Shown here: positions 1,565-61,082 of the stretch, in pieces
Layout: each line of letters opens with the position of its first letter
How positions within the stretch are numbered: the first letter of the stretch is position 1
Assembly: GCF_031877795.1 (NCBI RefSeq)
Contig: NC_133955.1
Span: 4,010,589 to 4,074,588, forward strand
DNA: 64,000 bases
Direction: 5' to 3'
From: Strix aluco
Lineage: Eukaryota > Chordata > Aves > Strigiformes > Strigidae
Notes under the pieces: generated by a model
The model's input: only the letters and a program-made list of their open reading frames with translations
Database searches by the model: none
What the model was told of the DNA's origin: nothing
Program-made: the position numbers and the translations under genes

Positions 1565-4500
1565 CTTCTCCTGGGGAGGTTTGGAAAGATCATAATCAAG
1601 ATGTTCCCTGTCCTGAACTGGCTGTTTTTATATCAGTTCAGAGAATGGATCTTGAGGGGTCTACATGCAGGCCTAAGTGTTGGGATGTTTCAGATTCCTC
1701 AAGGTAGGCAGAGAGAAAAAAACACTCCAGCTTCCTTTTGTATATCATGGTTTTCATCATCTATCTCCTGTGTGTGTTTCTGTTCTTTCTAATGTCATCA
1801 GGTTATGCGAGAACTTTAACCTTGGAAGTTCCTTAAATCATTAACCTATTTATTTGCATATTTGCAGAACTTCTTTTCTATAATAAGATGTTACATGGTA
1901 TAATTTCAAGGACAGGACACTACTCAAAATGTAAACTAATATCAGCATTTTCCTATATTGCAAACAAAATAACATGGGCTTTAAAATCCACCTTGCAAAA
2001 TCAGGTCTGTTAGATACTCACATGCATAGCCACCCTGCTAATAGGTTGCCTAAATGAAGAGTAGTTCTGGTTTGTTGTCTAATTTCCAGTTAGCAAGGGC
2101 CTGTTGTTGTAAAACAGCATTGGCTTTTGGCCTGGCTTTATCAGGTCCTGAATGGGGATTTTCATAAAGGTTGTCAGGTTTTCATCAGCAAAATTTTACT
2201 TAAAAATAGTAATCAAAGATAGAGAGCCTTCCCAGTCCGCTTGATTTTAGGAACATTTTTGCTTTCCAGGGCTTTTAGGAGTTTGGCTGACCAGGTTACC
2301 TCTGCCAAATATCAATGGCTTCCTTTCTGCATTCTGCTGCTCGATAACATATGTTATATTTGGGACTTCACATCATATCTCAATTGGTGAGGTTTATTTT
2401 GTACTGTGAAATGTTTCTGCAGGATTTAGAGATTATTCAGTGCTGCTTCAAAAAACTGGCAAGATGTCCTACCTATTTCATCTAATAGGCAGATATTACT
2501 TAGGTGAGAATCCAGACCCCCACGTTCTCAGTTCGTTGTTGTTCCACTTCTGCTGCTGATCCATGGTGAGAATTTCACCAAGTCAGTCAAGTTTCAGGTG
2601 CTTTGAACCCCCCGAGGATGGGAGCCAGCACGGCTCCTGTGTGACAGACACCAGTGCAAAGGAGAGGCTGGAGTGTCATGGAGGCGTCTCCTACGTAAAG
2701 GACCAGTGCAAGCTGCTTCACATTCACCTCCAGGATCTTACTGTGAATTATGATTTGGCTCCTGGTCTTCTCCATGCAGTTTCCATGACTGAACTGGTGA
2801 TGGGTTTATGTTCTTAATGTGTTCAGCAGCTGCCTTATTAAAATGCTGTTTACATGTGAGAAGGCCCTTCACATTATCATAATGAGTGGGTATGTGGAGC
2901 TCTGGCCTCTTAGGTAAATTGGCAGTTCTTTCCCTGACTGTGTTTTTCAGCCTTTCTGGCAGCTCATTGCAATGCATCCATTTTTTGTGCTTTACATTAA
3001 AATCTTTTTGTTGTGCATCTGCCGAACTGAAGACTTCACTCGTAAAATAGTAGGAATATGAAATTTTCAGACAAGACTTTGAAAACTTTAGGTACTTACT
3101 CAGAAACAGTAAAAATGAATTATATATGTGGATTGTTAATATGAATGAAAATAGACTGTCTCATACTGCACAGACTGATGGTGGGGGGAAGAGATGGATG
3201 TGTGGTTTTAAGACACGACTTTGTTGCAACATCTCATGCAGTTTCATTTTCTGTTCTCTGTTCTGTTGGTTCCAGGCTCATTCAGCATCCTAAATATGGT
3301 GGTGATAGACATTCTGAAGACTCTTACTTTGAACCAAACATTTTCCACTAATGGTTCACTGGACAATTTCTCAGACCCTACACTTAGGAAAGGGTACATG
3401 GAGGCCTTGACGCTTACCGCCTCAATAACATTTTTGACTGGCATCATTCAGGTAGAAGATGAATCTATTTTACATTCTTAATGATGTATCCTGACATGCA
3501 TTCTTCATACAAGTGTAAGAATTGGTACTGCTTACATACTCTTACCACAAATACTAAGCTACATTTGAATACGTGTTGTGCAAAGTGGGACATGAAGGTC
3601 TGTCTCTTCCTCTCATGCTGTCTGAAAAAGGTATGACAGGTGAAGATTCATGTGTCTATGATTAATATGTGTAAAGTAAATTATTTACACTGACCAGTTC
3701 TGCAATATGTTGACCCTTAGGTAGTCCTGCATAACTGCACACACTTGATGTAAAGTGCTCCTATTTTGGTTTGGCAGTGTCTTACTTAATTGTGCATAAT
3801 GAAAATAGCATGTTCCAATAACTATCCATCATGTATGGCAGTGAAGAATCACGCTCTTCAAATATGGAAACAAGAAGGACAGGGTTAGACATGGATAATT
3901 TTATCACATCTCACTTCTTGTTTGTTCCATACAGTTGCTGCTGAGGTTGCTTTTGCCTGGGGTTTGTAACAACATACATGCCGAAGGCTCCTCAGTGCTC
4001 ACCTCACCGCAGCAGCATTGCATGTCGTTGGATCACAGTTTAGCTTTATCTTTGACGTCATGCTTGACTTCCATAAGGGACCCCTGGGCATTTTCTATGT
4101 GAGTAAATTCATTGTTAGTCAAAGAAATGCATGCTTTTTGGAGGGGAAAGAAAAGAGCAGCTTCAGAAATTGAAGGCAATTTCAATCTAAGTCAGTTGCT
4201 AAGGGATATTTGTGCAAGTCTCAGCTGTGGTTTACTTCACCTTCCTGTTGTCTTGAACAATGTATGGAGCTTATTGTCTGACATGCAAGAAGAAAAGTCT
4301 GTGTGCATATTTTTAATTACTTATGTAGTGCTATACTATATTTTCAGCATGCCTACAATTGTAGCGGAGCAAAGGTTAAAGGAAAAGGTACTTTTCTCCT
4401 CAATAGATCATCGTGGGCAAGCTGTTGGGTACACAGGATCTTTATCATACCTGACAAAGAAGCAGCAGACTCCAAGCTAAAGACAAGTTAAAGCTAATTC

Positions 4501-7500
4501 ATCCTAATTTACTTTAGTAATGTCAATCAGACAACTTGAGGAAAAGGTAGTGTAGAAGAGAGAAGAATGACAGCACTAGATCTGAGCTATTCGTGGCAGT
4601 GATTTCTCTGCAGATACCAATAGACGAGAGAGATTTTTCAAATACTGTTTTTCTCTTAGCATCCCTCTTCTTCTAACTGAAGATACCACCATAGCAGAAA
4701 GGTTGAGTTCAAGTGTCAGGGCAACCTATGTCAGTCTCCTGGAATACAGAAATAGTTGTAGTATCTGACTCTGATCCTTTCTGATGATTTTTTTTTTTTT
4801 TTTTTCCAGAATCTATTTCGTTTCCTCCTGGTTCTCCCAGAGGCTAATGCCACCAGCATATTGCAATTTTTGCTTGGCATGGCCGTACTACGAGTCAATA
4901 CATCTATCATGATAACTTATAAACATAGTCCTAATGCATTTCCTATGGAACTTCTCTTGGTAAGTGATCTCCAAAATGCCATCGCGATAATTGAGCTAAC
5001 AGAGAGTATAATATACTTTATTTCAAAAAACATGTAACGTATTACTTCAAGATGCTGTTATATTTACACACTGAATCTGTGGTTAAGTCCTTTAAATATT
5101 CCTGCAAGATTAACTGTCTTCAGATGTATTGTATACAGTTTCAGGAACAAATGCTGTATAATCTCTGGTATTGCTTCTTGTTTTCTTTCCCAGATTATCA
5201 CAGTCATCATTATTTCTAATTACATTCATCATCATGCTGAATCAGTAGTGCTGTGGTCAGTAAGATTCCTCAGAGGTTAGTTTTCTATGCTGTTTTTGAG
5301 GTTGTACTTTTGAGATACGAAAGAGATGTTTCAGCCTGTTCTTGGAATCTGGCATGGGCTGACTTTTACTGGGAAGTACAGCTAGAAGAATAACTCTTCA
5401 AGAATTTTAATTACATCACCATTTCTGAGAATATACAGAATTCAAACTGCAGTTTTCTGTGTTAGATTCAGGTTTTATTAGCACACAGAGGAAGGAATTT
5501 GGATTTTTTTTGTGAGGTGGATTGAGAGCATCTCCAGTGGGGTGCTGGATGCCTCTGATGATGATCCTGGGTTCAGAGTTACTGAACTGGCCTAAATTTA
5601 TCTGCTCTCTCCTGTAGATTTGTGCCTCCTACACTGCCAGATTTATCAAACCTGAGCAAGATCATACTGTATGCCTTCTCCCTTGCTATTGTAAGCTATT
5701 TCCTTCTTGGTTTTGCTGGGGAGAGATATGCTTCACTTCACAACTACAGTATTGCCAGCAATCAGGTGAGAACAAAACTACAATACTTCCTAGGCCAAGA
5801 AGCAAGCTAAACTCAACTTGCAAAGCCACTACCTACCTGCCAGTGGTAGAAACGCAAGGACAGAGTGAATATGCCACGTGATGGTTTTGTAGCAACTTGT
5901 TACCCTTTCCTATTGCAAGTGTATGTTATAAGGCAATAACGTGAAGGCCAAAACACGGCCTTCTTTGACCAGGAGGCCTTTGTATATTCCCAGTGATTGG
6001 GATGAACCACACACACACAGAGTGCTGCAACTGATCGCTGAGGACCATTGCTGTCATGAATCCATGAGACTATAAAAGCATGATAAATGAAGAGCTGAAT
6101 TTGTAAATGGCCAGAGCAGCTGTAGTTCTTTTCTGTATGTGGCTACTATCCCAGTGTATGGATTCTCTGCCCAGAGCAATTGCTCTGAGAGGCTTTTAAG
6201 CTAAAACTGTGTTAGTAAGTAAAACTGTGCTAGAGTTAGTAAGCATTAGGTGTTTTGTACTACCCCATGTTTAGCTTGTTGTGATGGCTTTGGATCTTTA
6301 CTGGAATGGAACTGAGCCAGTAAGGAAGCTGCCTCTGGGGATACAATATAAAGTGAATGTCTTTTCCACTCAGCTTTTGTCGAGGTGTACTCTGGCTGTG
6401 TACTCAGATTTGCCATGTGTTAGCTTGAAAGTTAGTGCTTCTTAGCTTTGAGGTTCTAAGTGGATTTCTTTGAAGGAAGGTTCATGAGATCCTCAGATGT
6501 GAAAACTGTATGCCTTTTAAGAGAGCTCATTTAACCACCAGAGACCTTGCTTTCCAGGAGGTTTCCTGACCTTAGCAATACAGATGAGCAACCAGCAAGT
6601 GTGAGCAAAAGGAAAGGAATCCCTGCTACGCTACTTCTATGAAGGTAAGTCATTCGTTTGGGGTTTGCTTCCTCCTGTTTCTGTTTTACAGGAGCCAGTA
6701 ACTGTGGGGCTATGGAATACTGGCAGCTCATTTTTCAAAAGCTTTGTTGTCAGCTGTGCTATTTCTGGAACTGTCATTCAAGAGAAGACAGGTGGAAGAA
6801 CACAGGTGAGCTGGGCTGGATTTTTTTTAAGCTTCCAAACTCTCATCTAAAATCACTGTATACTGAGTATAGGCTGACACCTAATCGAAACAATTTGTGA
6901 AATATAAAGTTACATACCCAGGCAACATGAATTCAGATCCCCTCTCTGTGGATGTTATACTACGTACTACACTTACAGCACGTGATATGCCACGAAGGAA
7001 GCCAGGATCCTGTGGGGAGAATAGGATATGTTGTTCATGTAGTTTAAAATTATTTTAGTGAATATGCTGAAAAGCCAAATGGAAAATTGTTCATGCACCC
7101 TTAATTCTGCCACTTCTTCCTAACTCTTGAGTACTTGACATCATGATCTTTTTTTTTCCAGGGGGCAAAGAGGGTGTAATGTGTAATAATAGTATGTAAG
7201 AATGTTTTTATAATACCTCTTGACTGAATGTCTGTATATGCTTTACTGCAGCGTAGAAATAATTTTGTTTAATAAAGAGTGTATTTCGAAGTCTGACTTG
7301 CAAGAGAAGTATCTTATTACTCAGGTGAAATTATCAAACCCAAATCATTTGTTGCATTGTTCTGTTGTGCCTAAGAATAGTCCATTTAGGCCAAATTTAT
7401 ATCTACAGAAAACTCTTCCATCTTGAGTATACTAGAATTTGTACCATGAGTTGCAGCATACCTGTGACCTTTGTTAATTGTCCCCTGGTTATTTTTCCCA

Positions 7501-10500
7501 GTCAGTGGTGTTACATGGGCCACAGCTACTTGTTTAGAGAGGACGAGGGAGTAGATGGTTCTCCCGGGCCTCTCTAATAAAGTGTTTCTGTTCAGTTAGC
7601 AGCAGCGATTGGAGCTGGTGATTGCACTGAAACTAGGATGCTTTTTCCAGATGATACCTAATGTAAGTGAACTTGAAGTAGTTATGGCAGCAGCCTACTT
7701 ACTTCCTGAGCATAAAATGAAGATTTTTTTCTAAGCATAATATCTAGATTTTTCTGGGACAGTTAGGGATTATATCATGCTCTAGAGTTAATTGTTTTCA
7801 GGCATGGACCAAACCAAAACAATGACTTTAAGCTCTCCTAAATTCAGCAGGCTAACATATTAGGTAATGAATATTGCATCTCTCTCCCATGTCTCACTGA
7901 GCAGTACAAGCTAAAATTCATTGGCTAAAACTGGATTGAAATTTCACTGACAGCCTCTATAATTTAAACAGCTTGGTCTTTGAGGTTTATTTTAAAACCA
8001 TATGGACCCCTAAACTGCCTTCTGTGGATTTTGCATTGCCAGTGCAATAAACATAAACATTTTGTTATCATAGATTATTCAGAGTACTCAGTTTTCCACT
8101 TTTCCCTTAATTTTTTATCTAGACTTTTTTTTTTTTCTGTAAGTTTTCTTAGGGAACCACTGACAGAGCATTACTTCCTGATTTTTTTCCTGGCCTCTTT
8201 GTAAGATGGGAGAATTAATCCCTTTCCCAAAACTAGCTGACAAAACAGAATTTAACCATCTACTTCCTTTCAGTCTCCTTTTCTTTGCTAAGAGGCTATT
8301 TCAACAAATGGTGTCAAAGAACTTCCTAAATCTGGCAACGAACTACCCATGCTAATTGAAACCATTCTTTGAAACAGCAGCTCTTAATTCTGTAGATGGT
8401 GTTGGCCTTTCTCCTAGTGCTGCAGGAGGCACAGGCATTCACTGAAGAACACTGTAATGGAAACTACACATAACAGTTCGAGAGGAAGTCCAGTTGTATT
8501 GGCAGAAGTGATTGTGAAATCAAACAAGAAGCGACATGCTAGTTTCATGTTGGTTTGCAGATCAGAGGAGAACCGTTATACGTAGCTATAAAAATTATGG
8601 AAATAAAGGTATTATAAGATTTTCATTTCAAGCAGTTTGTCTGTGATGGATATCTGTTCCTTAGCATGTTTGTGGTTGCAAACAAAAAATAACAAAATAA
8701 TAGATGCTGGTTTTCTGATTTGCACAGGGTATACTGGCTGCTATTGTGGTATTTAACATGATCCCTTTTCTTGAAAAATTTCTGGACATCCCCATCCTGT
8801 GGAGACGGGGTAAGTATCATTTTGTAAGTGACAAAAAAAAACCATCTAGGATTTGGAATGTTTCTTAAAGGGAGAAATGTTTTGAGAGGGCAAGGCAAAG
8901 CAGTGGCCATTCCCTAGGAAAGCGATCCTTTGAAATAGCCGCTGAAACAAGTGTATTGAAATCTCTTTAAATCAATTTTCAATTAGTTCTAATTATTGTT
9001 GTTGCTTCCCACATCCCTTAAGAAGGAAATTGTCTAGCTGCCAGCTAGGGCCACATTCTCATTTCAACTCTTGTGCAGGATTTCTCATAAAGACCCCCAA
9101 TATGATGTGGTTTCATCCTGATAATTGAAGGCCTGTTAAAAAGTCTGGAGATTTGAACTGTGATTTGTGATCCTTGTTTGTGGCTACGTCCAGGACTGGG
9201 TTGGTCTAGATGTGCCAGCAAAGCTTTTCACGTATTACCATTTCTAGCCTTTTATATTGTCTGCAGTTTACAAATGCTGGGGCTGAGTTGGAGGTCATTT
9301 TGCATCTTTTTATGGCTCATGTTCTCTCTGTCTCTCGTTCAAAGGTTATTTGGCTTGCAGCTTTTGCTGCAGTGATTTGTTGGTTTAGTGATCGCCATGG
9401 GATTTACGTTCTTCATAATCACCATTAGGTCACACAGGTACTTGTAAATTTTAAAACAAAATACAAGTTTTTCTTAGAGTTGATGCTTTAGAGATAGTTA
9501 TATGTACAACAATTAAATAGGTGTTTCATGTGTGTAAGCACTTCAGTCAGGTCATTCTGGAGTCTCTCTAATGCTATCCCAAACCAGTAATCCCTTCGAG
9601 TTTATGGGCTCTGCATTGGTCCCTTCTGCAGGTGTACCATGCTACTGAAGACAGCTTATTATGGAGTAGGCATCAGCCAGGAGAGGTGATCTGTGTACAC
9701 ACACTTGCATAGGGATGAAATGAGATATTGTGCCTTTATTTCAAATACATTCCTCAGTCTTCACTGCCATTTACCAAGTTGCTTTATCTTCTCCGTAAAC
9801 TCCGTTCGTGATAGGGGAGGGAGGTTACGTCAGGCACACATTACTCAGTTTATTAGCAGCTAATCCAAACAGGAAAATCATTCATAAATACAAGCCATAC
9901 CTCATGAGATTTACCATAATAGGGAGGTGCTTGTCTGAGTAGACTGAAGCCTGGAAAGAGGTAGGAAATAACTCAGTTGCTGTAAATATCGAACCACTTG
10001 TGATCTGATCCAGAGTGGCTCTGAAAGAATGAATACCTTCAGGAAGAATTTCAGTTGCTGTCCAAAACTCACAGCATTACTTCTGCTCAGAGTTAAGTTC
10101 TTGGGTTTGCCTTGGGACTTCATGAGCATTGTGAAAGGGCATTTCTGCAGCCACTTCTCCATTAAGTATCCCTGTTGTCCGTACTACCTTCAGGATATAT
10201 AACTGCTTATCAGTTTCCTACCAGTGAGAGCATTATGCTGACAACATTCAAAAAAGCATGGGAAGTTATCTGCAAAGAGATTGCTTTGAATAGAGTGTCT
10301 TGACAAAAATTTTCCATACACCAGGGCCCGCTGCCTTCCAGTTCTCCAGCAACAAGCCAGCCAGTCCCATGTTTATTCCACCCATGCCCTGAACTGACCA
10401 GAACCTGTCCCAAAACCATCCAGCACCATTAGCAAAGCCCAGTACCCAAACCAAGATATTCTCTTTCAAGGCAAAACCCTGCATTAATGGTGCTACACGA

Positions 10501-13500
10501 GCTCTGGATCAGACCTCACCTCTGAGCAGCCAGCTTTAAGCACAAGTCACCGCTGCCTCCACCAGACTGTGTAGATGTATCTTTGAGGAGAGCTGTGGGG
10601 AGACAGAGAGGGAACGTGCTTTCCAGCATAATAACAATCATCCAAGTGTTCCAGAGCTAGAAATGGGATATTATCCATTCTTGAGGACACCACTGTAGCT
10701 GAAGGTTGTGCTTGTGTACTGCTCCCCTACTCAAAGAACCCTAATTATGAGTGAATAACTTTTTGTACTCGCACCCTGTAAGTTACAGTTGGTGTATCCA
10801 GTGAAGAGGAGAGAAATGGAGATCAAGCTTTTGGGAACAAATGGTTTTTCTCTGTTCTCTGTGAAAACCTAATAAACATCTTGTTTCAGAATGAAGATGG
10901 TGGTGCTGGGACAGATTCCAAACATGAATATTTATAGAAGTTTATCCGTCTACAGAGCCCTAAGAGGAAACAAAAAACAAATGTTCCATCTCTTTCTGTA
11001 ATCCAGCTCCTTCCCTTAAATGCCTGGGGGGACCATTCAGACTCAGTTCATTTGATTCAAAACTTTGAAAACTGAAGAATGCTAAAGTATCTGTGGTGAA
11101 GCGATTCGGATACCTGGCTCAGCCTGCCCGGGCCCTGTGGAGCTCCTTGTGTCAATCTGTGTGATTGTGTCGAACGGTGGAAGCTGCACTGCTGGCACTT
11201 CCAGAGCTGTTTGGCGTTTTTTGCTGACCTGCTTTTCTCAGTCTGGTTTTGTCCACTCTACCTATGTTTTCACAATAACAACTGTGCATGTGCTAGACTG
11301 ACTCATAGGTTCTCCCAATGATGGGAAAATAGGTAGGGCACGGGCCTTTTTAACACATTATTTTCAAGTCCTGCACCAGTTAGTGCAGTAGCAGAAAGCT
11401 TTACCTTTGCCACATGGGTACCTTCCCAGTGCTACGCTGATGGATTGGAAAAAAATGGAATAATATAAGGACAAGGTTAGTAAGACAAAGGTATAGTGTA
11501 TGTTTCCTGTAATGAGCATCGAAAATAATTTCCCTTACTTTACATTAGAGCAGCCAGCTGCCATCTGTGATGGATGTGCTGGAGGTATGTTTTTAATTGC
11601 AAGAGAAGCAGATTAGATTATGGTAATTAGGTCCATGCTGCCAATGCCCCTACCAGTATGCAGTGTAGTCAACAATGTGACCAGAGAAACTCTGTCCTTA
11701 GGGTAAGACCTTGCAGACTAAACATAGACAGTCAGGAGGGGAAAAATAGCTCCTGCTAGGTACAGCCCTCACAGATACAACTTTTGTTTTACAGGCAAGG
11801 GAGATTGAAAGTATCAAAATCTTCCAGTGCTGTTCTTCCATCTCTTCCGCAAACATGAATCACTTCAAAACCTATTTGCTATGCAAGGTAAATGCCACTT
11901 TCTCAGTCAGCCGAAGTTTCTAAGAGCCCTGCATTGGGGAGATAAAACCCCTAATAAAACTGCCTTTCTGTTTCAGATGGACATGAAAGCAGTGCCTCTA
12001 GATGAAAGTGAAATGAAGGCTTTAATTTCACTTAGTCTGTCTGACACTGCAGTGGAAGGAAAAGATCTTAAACGCCCTTGTGTCTGTGATCCACCTCCAC
12101 CACCACCACCTAGGGTCAGCTTTAAAAGTATATTTATCTAGGCTGTTTGTTTGAGGTGCCTGGTTTTATGTTACTGAGGACAATGTTCTTAACTTGCCAC
12201 ACTGAAAAGGCTGTAAATGTTTATATAAAGGATATATATATATATATTTGCTGTTTGAAAATAAGCAAACATTGCCACTGTATTTCTTTACGCATGCTTT
12301 ATGTGATAGAGCAACAGTAGCTCAGCTTACTGGGTGAATTAACCAGCAGTTGAAGTATTCAACATACTCTCTCCTCAGTTGAAAGAATGATTTTTGTCAG
12401 GTTCTTTGGTAGGGATTTTCTTCTTTTTCCCCACTGAAGTGAGAGAATTCCCTTGCTTATGAGGAATTTGTTCCTGCCAATACTGCCAAATGCAAGTACA
12501 AAATACCTCAAAGGCAACTACGATTATCATGATTAGAGAGTTTCTCTTCTTTACTATAATTGGCCGCTGTGCATCTTCTAGAATCATTCTTGTTCCTTTT
12601 TATCTGAATTTTCTGAATTGTCTTAGACAATGTATGAAGGGAACTTCAGGGAATGGACTGTCTTCAGAAGTGTTTTGTAAAAGCCCTTGTATGAGAAACA
12701 GGTTGACAGTGGTTTGGAAAACGTATGTGGCACCGAGGTGCTTAGGGAGTTGAAGTGATAGACAATGCAACGTTATCTTCTAAAGTACAAAAAATGCAGA
12801 GAGTGACTTTACCTTTCTTGCGTTATAAAAATTAAAGAACACATTGGGAACTATTGTGAAAGAAAAATTGGTTAAATTGGTCCTTTCTGTGACCAGCTGC
12901 CATACAAGAATGTAGATGAATCAAAGTTCTGCAGAACTCAGCCAGTAAGGGTCAGCTTAGTGCTGCTGAGAGAGGCAATGGCCATAGACAATTTTTTTGT
13001 TTTCTTCTTTTCTTTCCTGAAAGGTAGAAGTAACAAATCGGATTCCAGTATCACAGGCCATGTCCAGGTGTGGAAGAGTGAGGTACCACTGTACTATCTG
13101 GTGGCTGAAGGCACTCTGCTAACCACATCTGAGACTTGCCTAAGTCACTTGCTGCTTTGCATGCTCTTGTGGGTTCGTGCTATATTTAGTGTTATTTCAC
13201 ATATGTTTTTTACGACGAGAGAAAAAATATCATCTGATTTACAGTACTGTCTTACTTGCAGCAAAAATATTTTCCACCTCCTGGGCCCAATTCTTCCATC
13301 TGCTGATGCATTCTCCATTTTCCATCTTAGATACCATCTACAGAGGAGAGCAGAACATCACACAGACAGCAATTCCTCGTCATCTTCAGTTAATTTGGTA
13401 CATTGGTCAAAGCGTGGAGACAAGCTCAGCTCTGGGATGCTCTGGGCGGGAGCAGCCGATGCACAGTGTGCATCCCCAGGCTTTAACACGGGACTTACGA

Positions 13501-14424
13501 CTGAGAAGAACAAGGACGAAGGGAAAAGAGCTTGCCTTTCACCAGGCTCTGCAACAGATAATTCCTCGGTACAGATAGATCAGGAGGAACAGCTGATGCA
13601 TTTGCCATCTCCAGTTCACACCGTTATTTTAGTCTTCAGCATGGTGCAATTAGGGGATTTGGTAGGTTCAGTGTAACTGCAACAGGTAAGTACCCTAACT
13701 GCACATAAATGTGAAACCTGAAGTTTACCCAATGGCTTATGTTTCTAGTTAGCCAAAAATGCCTTGCTACGTAACAACACTCACATCTTTCAGTTGACTA
13801 AGGGAGCTATCGAGTTTCAGAAATTAATAAATTCCGATAAAACCACTTTTTTTAAAAAACAAAAGCCCCACTATCCACACAAAAGACATGCAAAAACCTG
13901 TCATCCATTGTCACCAGTTCTAGAGTCATGTAAACTAAAAGCACATTTATAAAAGATCTATTTTTTTTCCATTTTGGCTGTTTTTTTTTTTTCTTCTAGC
14001 TGGACACTTTAAAAAAATGCTCTTCTTTAAAAGTGTCGGATGTAAAACTCCCCGCAGTCTTCTAGAGTGATTTTGCTGTTATTGCTGACTGCCTAATTAG
14101 CCTTTCCTTTGAAGTATGCCTTGAACTTTTAAATCTCCAAGTGGGGATCCTAGCCAATGGAGACATAAATTTAGCAAAAATAAATTTCATGTAGCTGTGC
14201 TGCTTGGAAAGATACAGTTCCAGATGGATTCTTAGTCAGCTCCCACAAACTCTATAGCTCAACTTCAAAAGATTTTTGTTTAATAACAGGTTAGACTAAC
14301 ACCTATTGGGAATAATTGTGGACTGAGCTGTTGTCCCTGAAATCCTTGAAGATTTATTCGCCACCCACTGAATGACCTTCCCATTGGGAAAGGGGGATAA
14401 AGTCAAAGTTTCTCCACATTCTTT

Positions 14425-14460
14425 CCAACCCCGTATTCTGAAATTCTGTGATTCTCTGAA
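14425..14460 (+). repeat. Possible decayed CR1 3' tail
   Basis: The words CTTTCCAACCCC and ATTCTGTGATTCT resemble the 3' end of avian CR1 elements (TTCCAACC followed by ATTCTGTG repeats). It lies in an intron of the SLC26A8 relic. The upstream part is too diverged for me to recognise. Confidence 0.35.
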
Positions 14461-16514
14461 ATAATGAGTTTCGTTGCCTTTTTAAAAAAAAAATTAACTA
14501 CTTTGAGATATTTTTGTTACAAAGGGTTAGGCATTGAGAAAATGGTGAGAATCTATCACCTTTAAAATCTGATTCCTTTAACACTAAGTTGATATATCTG
14601 AAAATGTTGGACATGAAAATTGAGACAACCAGAATTACAGGTCACGCTTGAAAATAGGGGTTCCTATTCTCGTTTACACGTGGGCATGGCATCTGCATAC
14701 GGAGAGATGTTTCAAGTTAGTCTGTTCCTGTGAGAACTTTTTGTTTTAAGTGAAGAGATAGCACTGTGTGCTGCGTAGTGAACTGCAGGAGGGCCAGCAC
14801 GGGGTCTGGCCGTGACCTGCCCTGGCTCTGGAGTCAGCATTCATTAACATCCCGGACATCTTGGCTGTTCAGTGCTGAACTAGAAAACAGGATCGGAGAT
14901 AGTGGAATAAGGGTTTTCTTCAGAGATAAAACCCTGCAAGGGAGGGTTTGTTTCCCTATTTATGTTTTACCTCCTAGTTCACTTGTTTAATGCAGAATTG
15001 CTCTAATTCCTGCATGGAATTAATTCTTTGCACAGATCATTCATGTTTCCCAATCCTGGCATTACAGCCCTCACAGCTGGTTGTCACTGTGAGTATAGTA
15101 TTTGTTTACTAATATTGACTTATCTCCAAGGATAAGTTTTAAACTTAGAGTGTTTTAGCAGTAGTACTTGGTGTGATTTTGCTGCTTTATTTATTTTCCC
15201 CCATTTTTTTATAGCCGCTGTGATAGCAGACTTTGAGAAGAATGATTTCTTTGACAGCTGGGTCACCAAAGAAAGGTTCTTTCTAACTCTTCATGATGCT
15301 GTGCTGGCTGCTTTGGGCAAACATCAAAGCCCAGATGAGCTAGAACCTGCTGCGCAAGGGTCTGAAGAATCACTAGCTGAACAGCACAAGGTAGAACATT
15401 TAGCTTTAGAACATTTAAGCCCTCACGTTGTTAAATTATCCTGTCGGTAACTTAAACCTTGTCATGTGGCTGAGGAAATAGGGCAGAGCAGATGCTCTTT
15501 TGAATTCTCCAGTTTTTCACAGGTACTTGCCTTTTTTGCAATGGATCCATAATCCAATTTGTTTCTTTGAGTCCTGTGTTCCTGTTTGGGGAAAGGCATC
15601 TTTGTGTGCAGGCTGGAAAGGCATCCAGCTGAGTTTTGCGGCAGGGAATGACTTAGTTGCATTTTAAATTGTTTCCATTTCTCCGACAGAGCAAGGACCC
15701 TGCCAGGGCAGAGCAAAAGCTCCAAGTTTTTTATTTCCAGAGGTCACTGCACCAGGTCTCTTGGGGCTGATGGGGGAAATGAAGGACAGTGCTAGCTTGA
15801 TTGCCTGAAGTTTATGCACATGCTCTTTCTGTCAGTACTCTGCAATAATTTTTAAGCTCACTGGCTGTCGCAGCCAAGTTTGAATAGGGCAGACGGTTGC
15901 AAGTTCCAGGAAAAGCCCTTGTTCTGAGTAGAAGATTCCAGTACTTGCCCCACCTAGGGAAAGAGCCCAGCCTTGACTAATCATCCTGTGCATATCGCCG
16001 GGCTGGGGTCCTATAGCTGAAGGAGGTGAGAATGAAGGCAAAAACCTATGCAAATCTGTAGGTAAACAGGGTTCTGCTGCTCATGGAACAACTTGTTTAA
16101 CTCTCTTATCTTGACATTGTACAGAATAGTCTGATGCAAGGGTATTGACCTTCTGGACTCTCTCCTCCCCATAGAAAAAAACTTCAAAGAATGAAGGTCA
16201 CCGTTTATATTCACCAATCTCCCTTTAATGGACGTGGCGGGGAGGGTTGGGAGCAGCTGCTGGGCAGGAGGTGATGATGATTCCCCACTTCGAGATGAGT
16301 GTGCAGGGCTGGGTGTGCAGACGGGACCCACGGCAGCTCGGTGACGTCGGCTTTGGCGGTCCCTGCTAGCTCCTTTCCTCGGGGATTCGGACTGTCCCGT
16401 GCTCCCACGCCAGCATGGCCCTCTCGCTGCTCACATGGTGTTGCCTTGGCACGGGAACTGCTCTTGACTGGCTCAACAGATCGGCCACCCTCGGCTTTTT
16501 TGTGTACATTTCAG

Positions 16515-16732
16515 GAAAGAAGTTTGCTCTTGAAGAAGAAGAAAGATTTTTTTTCTCTGCAAAGAACTCTGACAACGAACTTCTGCATGAAGAGCCAATA
16601 TCAGATATCTCACGCTCAGCCCAGAATAAAGCAGAGCCAAGCTCTCTCCAGCAGTACGATACTCCACCCCTTCAATCGGATATTCAGGACCCAGGCTGGG
16701 GGAAGAGATGGAAGTATACCAGCAATCCCTGA
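16515..16732 (+). pseudogene. Possible 3'-terminal exon of the SLC26A8 relic
   Basis: A cag acceptor at 16512-16514 is followed by an acidic frame (GKKFALEEEER and EEPISDISRS) ending in TGA at 16730-16732. An acidic tail after the STAS domain fits SLC26A8. However, the phase needed (two bases completing a codon) does not join to the preceding exon, which ends in phase 0 at 15390; the phase-0 reading gives an unrelated lysine-rich frame. Either a small exon is missing, this is another frame break, or it is not an exon. Confidence 0.35.
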
Positions 16733-21117: not shown

Positions 21118-45704
<24,587 letters not shown>

Positions 45705-49435: not shown

Positions 49436-52400
49436 TCAGTCGTTCTCCTCTTCTGTAAAACAAAAGATAATTAGAGTGTTAATGGGGTGTAGGAATAACA
49501 ACAACGGTGCAGGTATGTTGTCACCTGCAGTGTGATGACCACAACAGCTCTGCTTCCCCCACCGGAGCAACCCACCATCCTCCCACCTAACAGCAGACGG
49601 CTGAGGTGTGAAAACGCTCCACGGCAGGACGGGGGCTCAGAGCTCAGCCCCGGCTGCCTTTACCTTTATCTTCCACTTTAAAATCAGACGGGAGGAGGTT
49701 GTCCTGCCGGTTCCCCAACACAAAGGCCAGGAAGGAGAGTATGAGCGCGTCGAGGATGCCGATGATGCAGAGGATGTACGCCCAGCGCACGGTGCAGGCG
49801 CCCAGTGTGTATTTGTCCGTCTTGTCCCCACACATGCGCTTCACCTCGCTCGAGTCCCAGCCGTCGGGGTAGATCAGGCACCCGATCATCAGCCCGGTAG
49901 CTGTGGGGAGAGGGAGATGTTACAGCCACCTCCCGAGCTGCTCCTGCACGGTTTGGGGGTCGGTGGAGGGGCACAGCGTGGCTGCATCCGGCCACAAACA
50001 CAATGCTACAACCGTAAAATGCTACGGACTGGCTAACGAGGCTTAAAAGTGCCCTGTGGTTGCCCATCCCGCGTGGGTTCTGCTTCATTCGTGCTGCTGC
50101 AGCTGGGGAGGAGCAGGACAGGGCACGCTGCTCCCATCAAGGCCGTGCTGCTGCAGCAGCATCTCCCATCGCTGCGTTGCCCAGGCAACATCTCTGCTCT
50201 CCTGCCTCCGCACACGTCCCTGGCTGTGTCGCTCCAAAGAAATATTTTCTCTGAACAAAACCAGGATGGATTTATTCTGTGCGAGGTGGAGAACCTTGTT
50301 ACTGCCTCGCACGTGGCTGGATTTCAGCTAAGGTAGAACTGCCGTCAGCAGCAGCTTTGCAGGCGGATTAATTCTGCTTGTTCAGCTGCCGTGGTTCCAG
50401 CCCGGCCCTGAGCCACTGGCTCGTCCTGCGGCTGCTCTCATCGCCCGACCCCGGTGCACACACGACCTCGACGGCCGCTCCCGCCCGGCCCCGGGGCCCT
50501 CGGCACGTCGCCCTTGTGGCTTTGCCATGGGAGTTGCAACAAACCCGGCGTGAGCTGCCGAAGGGCTGTCTTCTGCCAAGCAGCTCATGTCCCAAAATCT
50601 CAGAAGTGCTTTTTTTTTTTCCCCACGTGCTGAGAGAAATTGGATTTGCTGGACGAGAGTGACTGGGTTCAGCAGGGAGAAGAGCCGAGCTCATCTGCAA
50701 GGCTTTGGGATGTGATTAATGGAGGCTCTTTGCATCCTCCCCTGTTACCTTGGTGTAGAGCAGGGAAATAACTGGTCCTTTATATCTTTTTGTGCAGGTG
50801 TGAGGATGTCCTGGGCTCCTCATGCCAGAAACAACCTCATGGTAGGAGCTCTGGATGAGCAGCCATTTGTCCCTGCCCTTCGTGGACATCTACAGCCCCC
50901 TGCAGCAGCGAGATGCTCCCTGCCCTGTACTGGTGCCTTTTCTCTGTCACTGGGTGCTCAGTAATCCAGAAAACACTTGGGGTGGTTCCCTCACCCTTTG
51001 CTGATGTTTTTTTTTCCCTTGGTTTGGGGACAGGAGAGCGGCAAGGCCAGCGGGCAGCTTCCTAGGTCTGCAGAGAGCATTTCTCTTCATTAAGAAGCAG
51101 CTGGTTTCTCCTGTATTTAATTACTCTTCCCTGTAGCTAACAGAGAGGAGGGGCACAGAGAAAGGGGGGAAGCTAGAAAGGAATCGATTCTCCTGTGAAA
51201 ACGCACCCTGGGTGTGGAGCAAAGGCCAGAAAATGGATCCTCTTGTTGCCTGCCCTCTTTCTAAAACAACTCCCAGAAATGCGGCAGCACCTGCAGCGCC
51301 TGGTGGCAGCTCAAAAGCTCCTGAGAGTCAGTCTGGGACAGAGAAACTGGGCTGGCGGGGATGGTTTGGGCTCGTCTGTGCAGCCACAGCTGCCTGCACT
51401 AGGTTTCTCTCCACCATCCAGCACAAAAACATACGTAAAAGCCCCAAATGCAACAGCAAAGCCTTTCCCTGCTCCGGCTCCCGGGGAGGCTGAGCTTCCC
51501 CAAGCCTCTTATCTAAATCTTGGCTTGAGCTCACTTCTTTAGCCAGGAACTGGAGCAACCCCGATGCTGTCCTCCCGTGGGGTGTCGGCTGGGGTGTCCC
51601 TGCGTGGGGGCACCCAGGGGCGGTGGGAGCTGCAGCCAGTCCCAGCATGAATGATTCAGGAGCAGCAAAGGGCTGGGTTGGGTTTCAGCAGGGCTGCGAA
51701 GGCAGGAGCTGGGTTACCGGGTGTCTTGGGTGTCTCGATGCGTTGGGGGAGGGATGGGGAGGGCTGGAGATCTGCAGGCGTGAGCGGAAAAGCAGGAAAA
51801 TGTGGGTGATGGTACTAAGTCTTACAGTCAGTCCCCTCCTCCTGTTCCACCTCCCCACTACATCATCCCCTGAGCTCAGGGAGTTACCAAAATAACTCAG
51901 CAAATGTTATCACCGTCTCCTTGCTTAATTCCCACGGGATCCCCAAGGCAGCAGGGAGCCCCGCGGCATGTGGGACTCTCAGACTGATGCTCTGAAGCCA
52001 TGACCCCGCTGCACCCTGGGGCTGAGCAGGAGCGATGGCGCTGGGCGATGGCCAGAGGAAACCCCCCCACACCCCCAGGTAAGCGGGGACGGGCCGTGGC
52101 TGGGCCGTTGGTGCCGCGTGGTTTTGCAGCAGCAGCACACGGTGGGGGGAGCATTGCTCACATGCAGTGAGTTTGCTGGGTCTCAGCTGCTCTGACAGGC
52201 TTTATGTACTGCAAACTCCCTGCTGGTAACCAGTAAGGGGGAGCAAATGGGGCGTAGAGGTTATGCTGGTGTCTAGTCCCCCCCAGCAAAGTCGAGGTGG
52301 GGGCAGAAAGGGAAAAGCAGCTCTGGCCCCCCCATGCATCGCCCCCCACCCCGCTCACCTGCCGCCAGCTGCATCCAGGCACAGACTTTATAGACGGTGG

Positions 52401-52770
52401 CTGCGTTGCAGAAGAAGAAGAGGCTGAAGCAGAGGATGGAGCCGATGATGAGGAAGGTGGAGATGCCTACGAAGAACATGGCGGTTTTGAAGGCGCTGGA
52501 GGGGATGGTGCCGAAGTCCAGGGGGCTGCCCTTGCAGATGAGCTCGCCCGTGAGCGCGTTGCCGATGCAGTAGGAGAAGAGGCCGAAGTAACCGGCCTGC
52601 GGCGTGTCGATGCTGTCGCCGATCCAGTACGGCTGGATGAAGGTCACGACCATCAGGATGGAGAAGCAGAGGGTGAAGAGGGCCCAGAGCACCCCCATGG
52701 CCCGCGCGTTCCGCACGTAGTTGGTGTGGTAGATCCGTGCCGCCTCCTGCGCCGGCAGCAGCTTGGGCAT
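49436..52770 (-). CDS. LHFPL5: LHFPL5 (TMHS), four-pass subunit of the hair-cell MET complex
   Basis: Coding exons on the minus strand: 52359-52770, 49664-49900, 49436-49452. Together 666 bases: 221 residues plus stop, close to human LHFPL5 (219). In vertebrates the protein links the tip link (PCDH15) to the TMC1/2 channel in stereocilia; its loss causes deafness in humans and mice. The start [20 protein letters not shown] is typical of the family. Four hydrophobic segments are visible (roughly residues 25-45, 95-125, 130-150, 180-205). The first extracellular loop holds the conserved [10 protein letters not shown] and [13 protein letters not shown]. Exon 2 carries the DGWDSSEV loop and the last segment ([12 protein letters not shown]). 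The third exon is only 17 coding bases (EEEND after the split codon). LLPAQEA and TPQAGY favour LHFPL5 over LHFPL3/4, and the position next to SRPK1 and CLPS confirms it. The frame is intact. Intron 1 is about 2.5 kb. Confidence 0.96.
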
Positions 52771-52973: not shown

Positions 52974-53575
52974 TCGGGATGAGCCCGGTGGCCCCGGGAT
53001 GTGCCTTTAGGATGAGCCCTTAGGATGGGTCCTGCACCCCCAGGATGCGCCCCTAGGGTGTGCCCTGTGTCCCCGGGATGCGCCCTGTGTCCCCGGGATG
53101 TGCCCCGGACCCCCGGGATGTGCCCTGTGTCCCCGGGATGAGCCCCGGATCCCCTGGGATGAGCCTCGAACACCCGGGATGTGCCCTGTGCCCCTGGGAT
53201 GAGCCCCGTACCCCCCGCGATGCACCCTGTGACCCCGGGATACGCCCCCGGGATGAGCCCTGGACCCCCGGGATGTGCCCCATATCCCTGGGATGCTCCC
53301 TCGGGATGTGCCCTGGGCCTGTGGGATGAGCCCTGTGTCCCCAACGTGCACCCCAGGATCCCCCCGGGATGCACCCCGTGCCCCTGGGCGGTGCTCCGGG
53401 GTGCACCCTGTGCACTCTCGGGGTGCACTCTGTGCACCATTGTGTCCCCATAATGTACTGTGTGCCCCGGGATGGGCCGTGCACCCCCAGGATGTGTCCC
53501 AGGATGCATGTTGGGGTGCCCCCAGCGTGTGCCCCAGGGGCTGTACCATGACCCCCAGGATGTCCCCCAAATGCT
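52974..53575. repeat. GC-rich minisatellite, about 20-21 base unit
   Basis: About 25 imperfect copies of a unit like CCCCGGGATGTGCCCTGTGT, with variants containing GATGAGCCC or GATGCGCCC, decaying towards the right end. Because many copies are near 21 bases, several frames stay open on both strands; these are not genes. It lies 0.2-0.8 kb upstream of the LHFPL5 start codon. Confidence 0.9.
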
Positions 53576-54814: not shown

Positions 54815-55825
54815 ATGGCCAACGCGCTTCCCCCCTGCCTGCTCCTGGCCCTGCTGCTCCTGCCCCTGGCCCTGCCTGCGCCGCACGAGCGAGGGCTCAT
54901 CTTCAACTTGGTAAGAGGGACACTAATCCCGTCCTTGCCACAGCTGGGGGATGCACCGGGGGGGGGGGTTTGGAGGGGTCTGTGGTGCTTTAGTCACTGG
55001 CAGCAGCTACGTGGGGGAGCCCCGGGGTAACGGCTGCAGCTGCCGAGAGCAAAATTTATTGTGGCTGGAGAAACTGAGGCAGGTGGGGATGGTGTGCTGG
55101 GTTTTCCCGGGTTGTGAGGGATCTCAGAGCCCGGGAAAGCAGCTGTGTAAAGGGACAGGGAAGCTGCAAGTGGATGGGATTGAAGTTCTCTGCTGCTTGC
55201 ACCAGTGAGAACCCTCTCCCTGGGGGGCTCACAGGGAATGGGGAGGGGGGACACTTTCCCTGTGGTGTCTCAGCCCCGTTCCCATGAGCCAGGCAGAAAA
55301 CAGCACTTCAGCGGGTGGTATTTTGGGCCAGACCAAGGAAATGCTGCAGGGTGGGAGGCTCAGGCATGCTGAGGCAGAGCTGGTGTGCGACACCCACCCA
55401 AAACCCCCAGGCCCCCCGGGGGGGGGTTTAAGGTGGGGGACAGAGAGGGACCTGGTGCTCAGGCCGTGCCTCGCGGTGCAGGACACGGGGGAGCTGTGTC
55501 TGCAGAGCGCCCAGTGCAAGAGCGGCTGCTGCCACCGGGGCAGCGGCCTGAGCCTGGCCCGATGCGCGCCCAAGGCGGCCGAGTTGCAGGCGTGCTCCCC
55601 AAAGGTACGTGCTCCTCTGCTCCCGGGGGGGTGGGACAGGGATGGGGGCACGTCCCCCGCGCTGCACTGTGCCTTGGTTCCCCGTAGAGCATCTATGGGG
55701 TCTACTACAAGTGCCCCTGCGAGAGCGGCTTGACCTGCGACGCTGATAAAACCATCGTGGGCTCCATCACCAACAGCGACTTCGGCATCTGCCAAGACCC
55801 CCGGAGCTCCAACGGGTCGCGGTGA
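54815..55825 (+). CDS. CLPS: CLPS, pancreatic procolipase
   Basis: Coding exons 54815-54910, 55482-55604 and 55688-55825; 357 bases, 118 residues plus stop (human 112). Colipase is secreted by the pancreas, binds the C-terminal domain of pancreatic lipase and anchors it to bile-salt-covered fat droplets. The first 18 or so residues are a leucine-rich signal peptide (LLLALLLLPLALPA). A short propeptide APHER ends in Arg before GLIFNL, the site where trypsin would free the activation peptide. The mature chain keeps all ten cysteines in family order (ELC, QC, GCC, ARC, QAC, KCPC, LTC, GIC). The lipid-binding finger with tyrosines (SIYGVYYKCPC) and the end GSITNSDFGICQD are also present. Exon phases agree (0 and 0). 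The gene is tail-to-tail with the ARMC12-like relic. Confidence 0.96.
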
Positions 55826-60786: not shown

Positions 60787-61082
60787 AGGGGGGGGGGTGG
60801 GAAATGCAGGGGGGGGATACTGGGGGGGTGTGGGGGGATGCAGGGGGTGGTGCTGGGGCTGTGCTGGGGGGGGATGCTGAAAGGGGTGTTGGGGGGGGGG
60901 ATGGGGGGGGATGCAGGGGGGTCTGTTGAGGGGTTGTGGGGGGAATGCAGGGGAGATGCGAGGGGGGATGTTGGGGGGGATATTGTGGGGGCTTGCATGG
61001 GGGATGTTGTGGTGGATGCAGGAGGGGGATGTTGGGGGGGATGTTGGGGCGGATGCCAGGGGCCATGCTGGGGGGGGGGGGT
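60787..61082. repeat. G-rich minisatellite
   Basis: About 300 bases of irregular tandem units of the form GATGCAGGGGGG or GATGTTGGGGGG, seen directly. Very strong G-quadruplex potential on the plus strand. The open frames within it (Gly/Gly-Asp on plus, Pro/His on minus) are artefacts of the repeat. Confidence 0.85.

Follow-up and report, generated by a model that had tools for sequence, protein, structure and literature searches.

The DNA considered here, a window of 64,000 nucleotides from Strix aluco (forward strand of NC_133955.1, positions 4,010,589 to 4,074,588, assembly GCF_031877795.1), contains near its beginning a spliced gene of the SLC26 type, SLC26A8, which was mapped exon by exon. 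Seventeen exons were found in the expected order between window positions 1565 and 15390 on the plus strand, and one doubtful further exon (16515-16732) would extend the gene to 16732. An AG acceptor is present in 18/18 cases and a GT donor in 16/17, and the introns recognised by this splice-site mapping are retained, so the locus is not a retrocopy. Exons 3, 5, 8, 10, 12, 13, 14 and 17 were recognised from splice sites and frame together with tblastn, and so were exons 2 and 7, with 44% and 63% identity, respectively, to a provisional human SLC26A8 sequence. The features of the gene, all on the plus strand, are as follows.

1565..1703, plus: exon 1 as found, first transmembrane part, 139 nt against 140 in the family
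2270..2386, plus: exon 2, open
3276..3451, plus: exon 3, open
3935..4098, plus: exon 4, two frameshifts, 164 nt against 165 in the family
4810..4959, plus: exon 5, open
5194..5275, plus: exon 6, one base missing near 5242, 82 nt against 83 in the family
5618..5765, plus: exon 7, open
6692..6805, plus: exon 8, open
7596..7662, plus: exon 9, 11-base deletion, 67 nt against 78 in the family
8728..8823, plus: exon 10, open
9345..9437, plus: exon 11, 14-base deletion, 93 nt against 107 in the family
10890..10959, plus: exon 12, open, 70 nt, a length that also fits in paralogues of the same genome
10960..10961, plus: donor of exon 12, CT instead of GT
11795..11887, plus: exon 13, open
11977..12114, plus: exon 14, open
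13331..13685, plus: exon 15, STAS insert and start of the second STAS half, frame effect dependent on the acceptor
13674..13676, plus: TAA in the frame of exon 15
15036..15088, plus: exon 16, 2-base deletion, 53 nt against 55 in the family
15215..15390, plus: exon 17, open, end of STAS
16515..16732, plus: possible last coding exon from the exon mapping, acidic tail, no Pfam match, assignment uncertain

The preliminary description of this DNA had stated that nearly all exons were still in place. This holds for the 17 exons mapped in order, but the last exon is uncertain, and a search of the approximately 6.1 kb separating the start codon of MAPK14 from exon 1 did not reveal the first coding exon. 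That search covered ATG-initiated open reading frames of at least 40 codons (L009:5401 to window position 1600), and the sequence ahead of 51 donor-like sites was scanned for a cysteine motif; the motif scan gave one poor candidate, and none of the candidates resembled an SLC26 N-terminus.

Identity and position of the gene

A conceptual read-through of 752 residues, in which X was placed at the lesions, was compared with solved structures using phmmer and matched 21 distinct sequences of SLC26 and of plant and other sulfate-transporter-like proteins. The best match is prestin (E 2.3e-102), in two stretches corresponding to the transmembrane and STAS parts. The C-terminal STAS is present, with residues 652-747 aligning to prestin, and the chicken prestin STAS structure 5ezb also matches. 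The Pfam family PF00916 (Sulfate_transp) is recognised on the read-through with an E value of 4.9e-55; the Pfam STAS model found no match there, and four single SLC26A8 exons submitted to Pfam separately matched no family. Paralogues elsewhere in the same genome are 25-40% identical to the read-through.

By tblastn, the gene order is MAPK14, SLC26A8 and SRPK1, followed by LHFPL5 and CLPS; MAPK14 and SLC26A8 stand head to head, and some 6.1 kb separate the MAPK14 start codon from exon 1. According to a paper on MAPK evolution, MAPK14 has SRPK1 and SLC26A8 as neighbours in most vertebrates, chicken included (PMC3202601). On the grounds of an SLC26-like product and of its position between MAPK14 and SRPK1, the gene is judged to be SLC26A8 (testis anion transporter 1) in its ancestral place. 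The exons matching the provisional human protein are 34-63% identical to it, the lowest value being that of the broken exon 11, and 530/871 human residues are covered.

Lesions and exon lengths

The ancestral copy of SLC26A8 carries inactivating lesions. Nine are counted as probable or certain: seven indels (−1, the probable one, in exon 1; +1 and −2 in exon 4; −1 in exon 6; −11 in exon 9; −14 in exon 11; −2 in exon 16), the CT donor of exon 12, where the 70-nt exon is followed by ctaagagga, and the in-frame TAA of exon 15. When the 18 exons are joined unmodified, the frame ends after 232 codons and contains 24 stops. Read in the frames of the single exons, 721 codons contain 1 stop, far fewer than chance would give: 2000 mononucleotide shuffles averaged 39.5 stops, and none had fewer than 23. 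The probable deletion in exon 1 lies near 1574, with a frame change between FSWG and RFGK. The homology of exon 4 is divided among all three frames, one part in each, and an alignment to the provisional human sequence places the +1 near 3960 and the −2 near 3990, these indel sizes being inferred from that alignment. The second half of exon 11 is in a different frame from 9382 onwards.

The lengths of the damaged exons were compared with those in three SLC26 paralogues of the same assembly, requiring that each tblastn match be bounded by an AG and a GT with an open frame between them. Of the paralogue matches, 33/40 accommodate one or more of the standard exon lengths, several of them more than one, and the remaining 7/40 fit no standard length, some of them spanning two exons. 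Lengths of 165, 114, 107, 93, 78 and 70 nt fit in 3/3 paralogues, sometimes beside other fitting lengths, whereas 148, 96 and 140 nt fit in two, 55 nt fits 2/3, and 83 nt was found at the expected place in one. The lengths of undamaged SLC26A8 exons (114, 148, 96, 70 and 93 nt) thus also fit in the paralogues. For exons 4, 9 and 11, the family lengths fit and the SLC26A8 lengths do not (165 and not 164, 78 and not 67, 107 and not 93) in three paralogues each; the same is true of exon 1 in two paralogues (140 and not 139) and of exon 6 in the prestin-like gene (83 and not 82). For exon 16, 55 nt fits two paralogues, but 53 nt also fits one of them, the prestin-like gene. Overall, 14 control places correspond to the six abnormal exons and were selected because the standard length fits, so that it does so at 14/14, while the abnormal lengths (139, 164, 82, 67, 93 and 53) fit at 1/14, the exon-16 place. 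By the measure of these paralogues, the lengths of exons 1, 4, 6, 9 and 11 are therefore abnormal within the bird's own genome, and that of exon 16 less firmly so, giving six abnormal lengths and seven indels.

A frameshift in exon 15 was initially counted among the lesions and then dropped, because an acceptor 13 bases downstream of the first (13344) gives a 342-nt exon that is open except for the TAA; acceptor 13331 produces a net frame change, acceptor 13344 produces none, and the frameshift remains an ambiguous tenth lesion. The earlier claim of at least seven separate frame-destroying lesions is thus borne out by the nine counted here, with six exons of abnormal length backed by the paralogues, although a frameshift in exon 15 is not certain. 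Ten exons (2, 3, 5, 7, 8, 10, 12, 13, 14 and 17) are still open, which leaves room for the view that the locus keeps a shorter function, as an N-terminal fragment, a regulatory RNA or a STAS-only protein. This is very unlikely, since exon 1 is probably frameshifted and no start exon was found, and the STAS part contains both the TAA and a frameshift.

Weighing the pseudogene reading

Our preferred reading, which we hold with a probability of about 0.92, is that SLC26A8 is a unitary pseudogene, which was disabled within the lineage of this bird and has decayed since. The preliminary description had proposed a unitary pseudogene at 1565..16732, and the SLC26-like product, the MAPK14 and SRPK1 neighbours, the nine lesions and a genome search without a second copy all agree with it. 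That search covered the 1.41-Gb assembly in 202 contigs, which may be incomplete, and found no second SLC26A8 copy: with all 42 candidates scored, the read-through gave 20 matches, 13 in the window at 64-98% identity and 7 to paralogues, none of these above 40%. Across the genome, PF00916 gave 29 exon matches, one of which lies at the SLC26A8 locus, in exon 8.

Several points weigh against this reading. The human SLC26A8 query was a provisional sequence, not one retrieved from a database, and exons 6, 9, 15 and 16 gave no tblastn match of their own to it at E < 0.02. Indels outnumber stops 7 to 1, and the single-base indels of exons 1 and 4 fall within stretches of four consecutive G, the kind of place at which assembly errors are commonest. 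SLC26A8 is named in chicken selection scans (PMC6508745; PMC12046372) and its expression was measured in duck gonads (PMC9643717); birds at large therefore seem not to have lost it, and an argument from the sperm pathway alone, as set out below, is insufficient. Finally, CFTR seems to be retained in this genome, because its R domain shows 266 residues of uninterrupted frame (C5:61252378).

The excess of indels and the two one-base changes within four-G runs are what errors of assembly or base calling in an intact SLC26A8 would produce. Such errors are nevertheless a highly improbable explanation of the locus, given that neither a stop, an altered donor nor deletions of 2, 2, 11 and 14 bases are typical of such errors, that a standard exon length fits 33/40 paralogue matches, and that four flanking genes are clean where aligned. 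Three of these control genes lie in the window.

21237..45701, plus: SRPK1, 639/655 residues covered, no coding lesion where aligned
49671..52770, minus: LHFPL5, 214/219 residues covered, no coding lesion where aligned
54839..55798, plus: CLPS (colipase), 102/112 residues covered, no coding lesion where aligned

For MAPK14, no coding frameshift or stop appears in the 335/360 residues covered, residues 39 and 142-165 being uncovered; this count dropped matches below 80% identity and matches inside the window, including MAPK13-like exons, and one dropped match (residues 146-167) has a stop at a presumed intron edge. Together the four neighbours show 1290/1346 residues without a coding lesion, versus nine lesions in about 720 SLC26A8 codons, integrity here referring to the coding frame. 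The earlier argument that intact neighbours make a general assembly error unlikely is upheld by these genes and by the sizes of 4/7 indels (2, 2, 11 and 14 bases).

MAPK13-like exons were observed beyond MAPK14 (L012 1513-6885), so the MAPK13-MAPK14 pair seems to be retained. A MAPK14-like piece, INQLQQIMRLTGTPPAYLINRMPS, lies between two MAPK14 exons (L011 3364-3447) and resembles the alternative exon of human MAPK14; alternative splicing of MAPK14 may thus be conserved here. Three repeats were also noted in the window. A GC-rich array of related short repeats with periods of about 20, 33 and 61 occupies 53009-53426, between LHFPL5 and CLPS, and a second low-complexity array, G-rich with a period of about 12, lies at 60789-61077. 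Judged from its ATTCTG-type tail, the segment 19565-19810 resembles the 3′ terminus of a CR1 element.

As for the age of the loss under the pseudogene reading, the divergence estimated from one stop and one splice loss, relative to their mutational target, is 1.5% (0.2-5.6%). With 6 or 7 indels included, the estimate rises to 2.1-4.2%, and its limits across all settings are 0.9-7.5%. These values assume indel-to-substitution ratios of 0.05-0.15 and a frame-shifting share of 80%. An avian neutral rate near 2 per billion sites per year would put the loss about 10-20 million years ago, with limits of about 5-37; this is a rough guide and not a date, because the ratios, the frame-shifting share and the neutral rate are assumed. 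The loss had been called fairly recent, and the low stop count (1 in 721 codons) speaks for this, whereas the estimate itself relies on assumed mutation ratios. A null allele still segregating and caught in one individual would be compatible with the single haplotype seen, but it is extremely unlikely, as nine lesions, with the above divergence limits, need longer than a polymorphism usually persists.

A variant compatible with the pseudogene reading is that the loss is old and common to a large bird clade. CatSper and sNHE (PMC6660944) and STK33 (PMC4509753) have been widely lost in birds, which would fit such a history, but the single stop in 721 codons and the chicken and duck papers speak against it, and we regard it as unlikely. 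The loss of SLC26A8 is probably confined to a lineage, because those papers name the chicken gene and report its expression in duck gonads. A literature search on SLC26A8 and birds yielded no title or abstract opening that reports its loss in a bird.

Probable SLC26A8 loss and the sperm of birds

In mammals, male Slc26a8 knockout mice are sterile with immotile sperm, heterozygous SLC26A8 missense variants occur in men with poor sperm motility, and the protein, a binding partner and stimulator of CFTR, is found at the annulus and the equatorial segment of sperm (PMC6813192). The mammalian gene belongs to the same family and likewise has SRPK1 and MAPK14 as neighbours (PMC3202601), the difference being that it is a working gene. 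In a survey of birds, sNHE was conserved in no bird examined, CatSper only in two palaeognaths, and sAC is a pseudogene in some birds (PMC6660944). These are likewise sperm ion-transport or signalling genes lost or pseudogenised in birds, but their losses are wide, unlike that of SLC26A8 here, and PMC6660944 contains 0 occurrences of SLC26A8. In the present genome the CATSPERB_C profile gave no match, and likewise none in control genomes, so this result is uninformative.

A close parallel is STK33, a possible spermatogenesis gene that is dead at its own locus in birds, where it carries indels and premature stops and a functional copy has not been found; large deletions removed several of its exons, the loss is shared by all 28 neognaths studied, and its authors date it to about 100 million years ago (PMC4509753). 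SLC26A8 here, by contrast, has kept nearly all of its exons and seems to have been lost more recently. Ciliary genes different from SLC26A8, WDR93 and CFAP46, have reportedly been lost in some birds. SLC26A8 thereby joins a known class, the unitary pseudogenes of bird sperm genes, e.g., STK33.

A possible history of the loss can be outlined. In mammals, SLC26A8 would serve sperm together with CFTR and the HCO3−/cAMP pathway, and since the linked sperm machinery (CatSper, sNHE and partly sAC) is largely gone in birds, the need for SLC26A8 may have fallen and selection been relaxed. One indel or the lost splice donor could then have been fixed, with the remaining lesions neutral afterwards; we infer a relaxed need instead of an adaptive loss. 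A transcript of SLC26A8, if made, would terminate prematurely or be degraded. Splicing around the damaged exons would take out membrane helices and hence would not be expected to yield a working transporter. The animal thus probably makes sperm without SLC26A8. More tentatively, the loss of SLC26A8 with CFTR kept, and with the gene kept in other birds, might indicate that the sperm of this lineage left the mammal-type HCO3−/cAMP motility pathway, perhaps after sperm competition relaxed; we consider this possible, with the odds somewhat against it. If the pseudogene reading is true, a bird reproducing without SLC26A8 would be a natural knockout, showing that the gene becomes dispensable after other parts of the sperm pathway have changed. 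The lesions would then provide a means to time the loss against the mating system in sister species.

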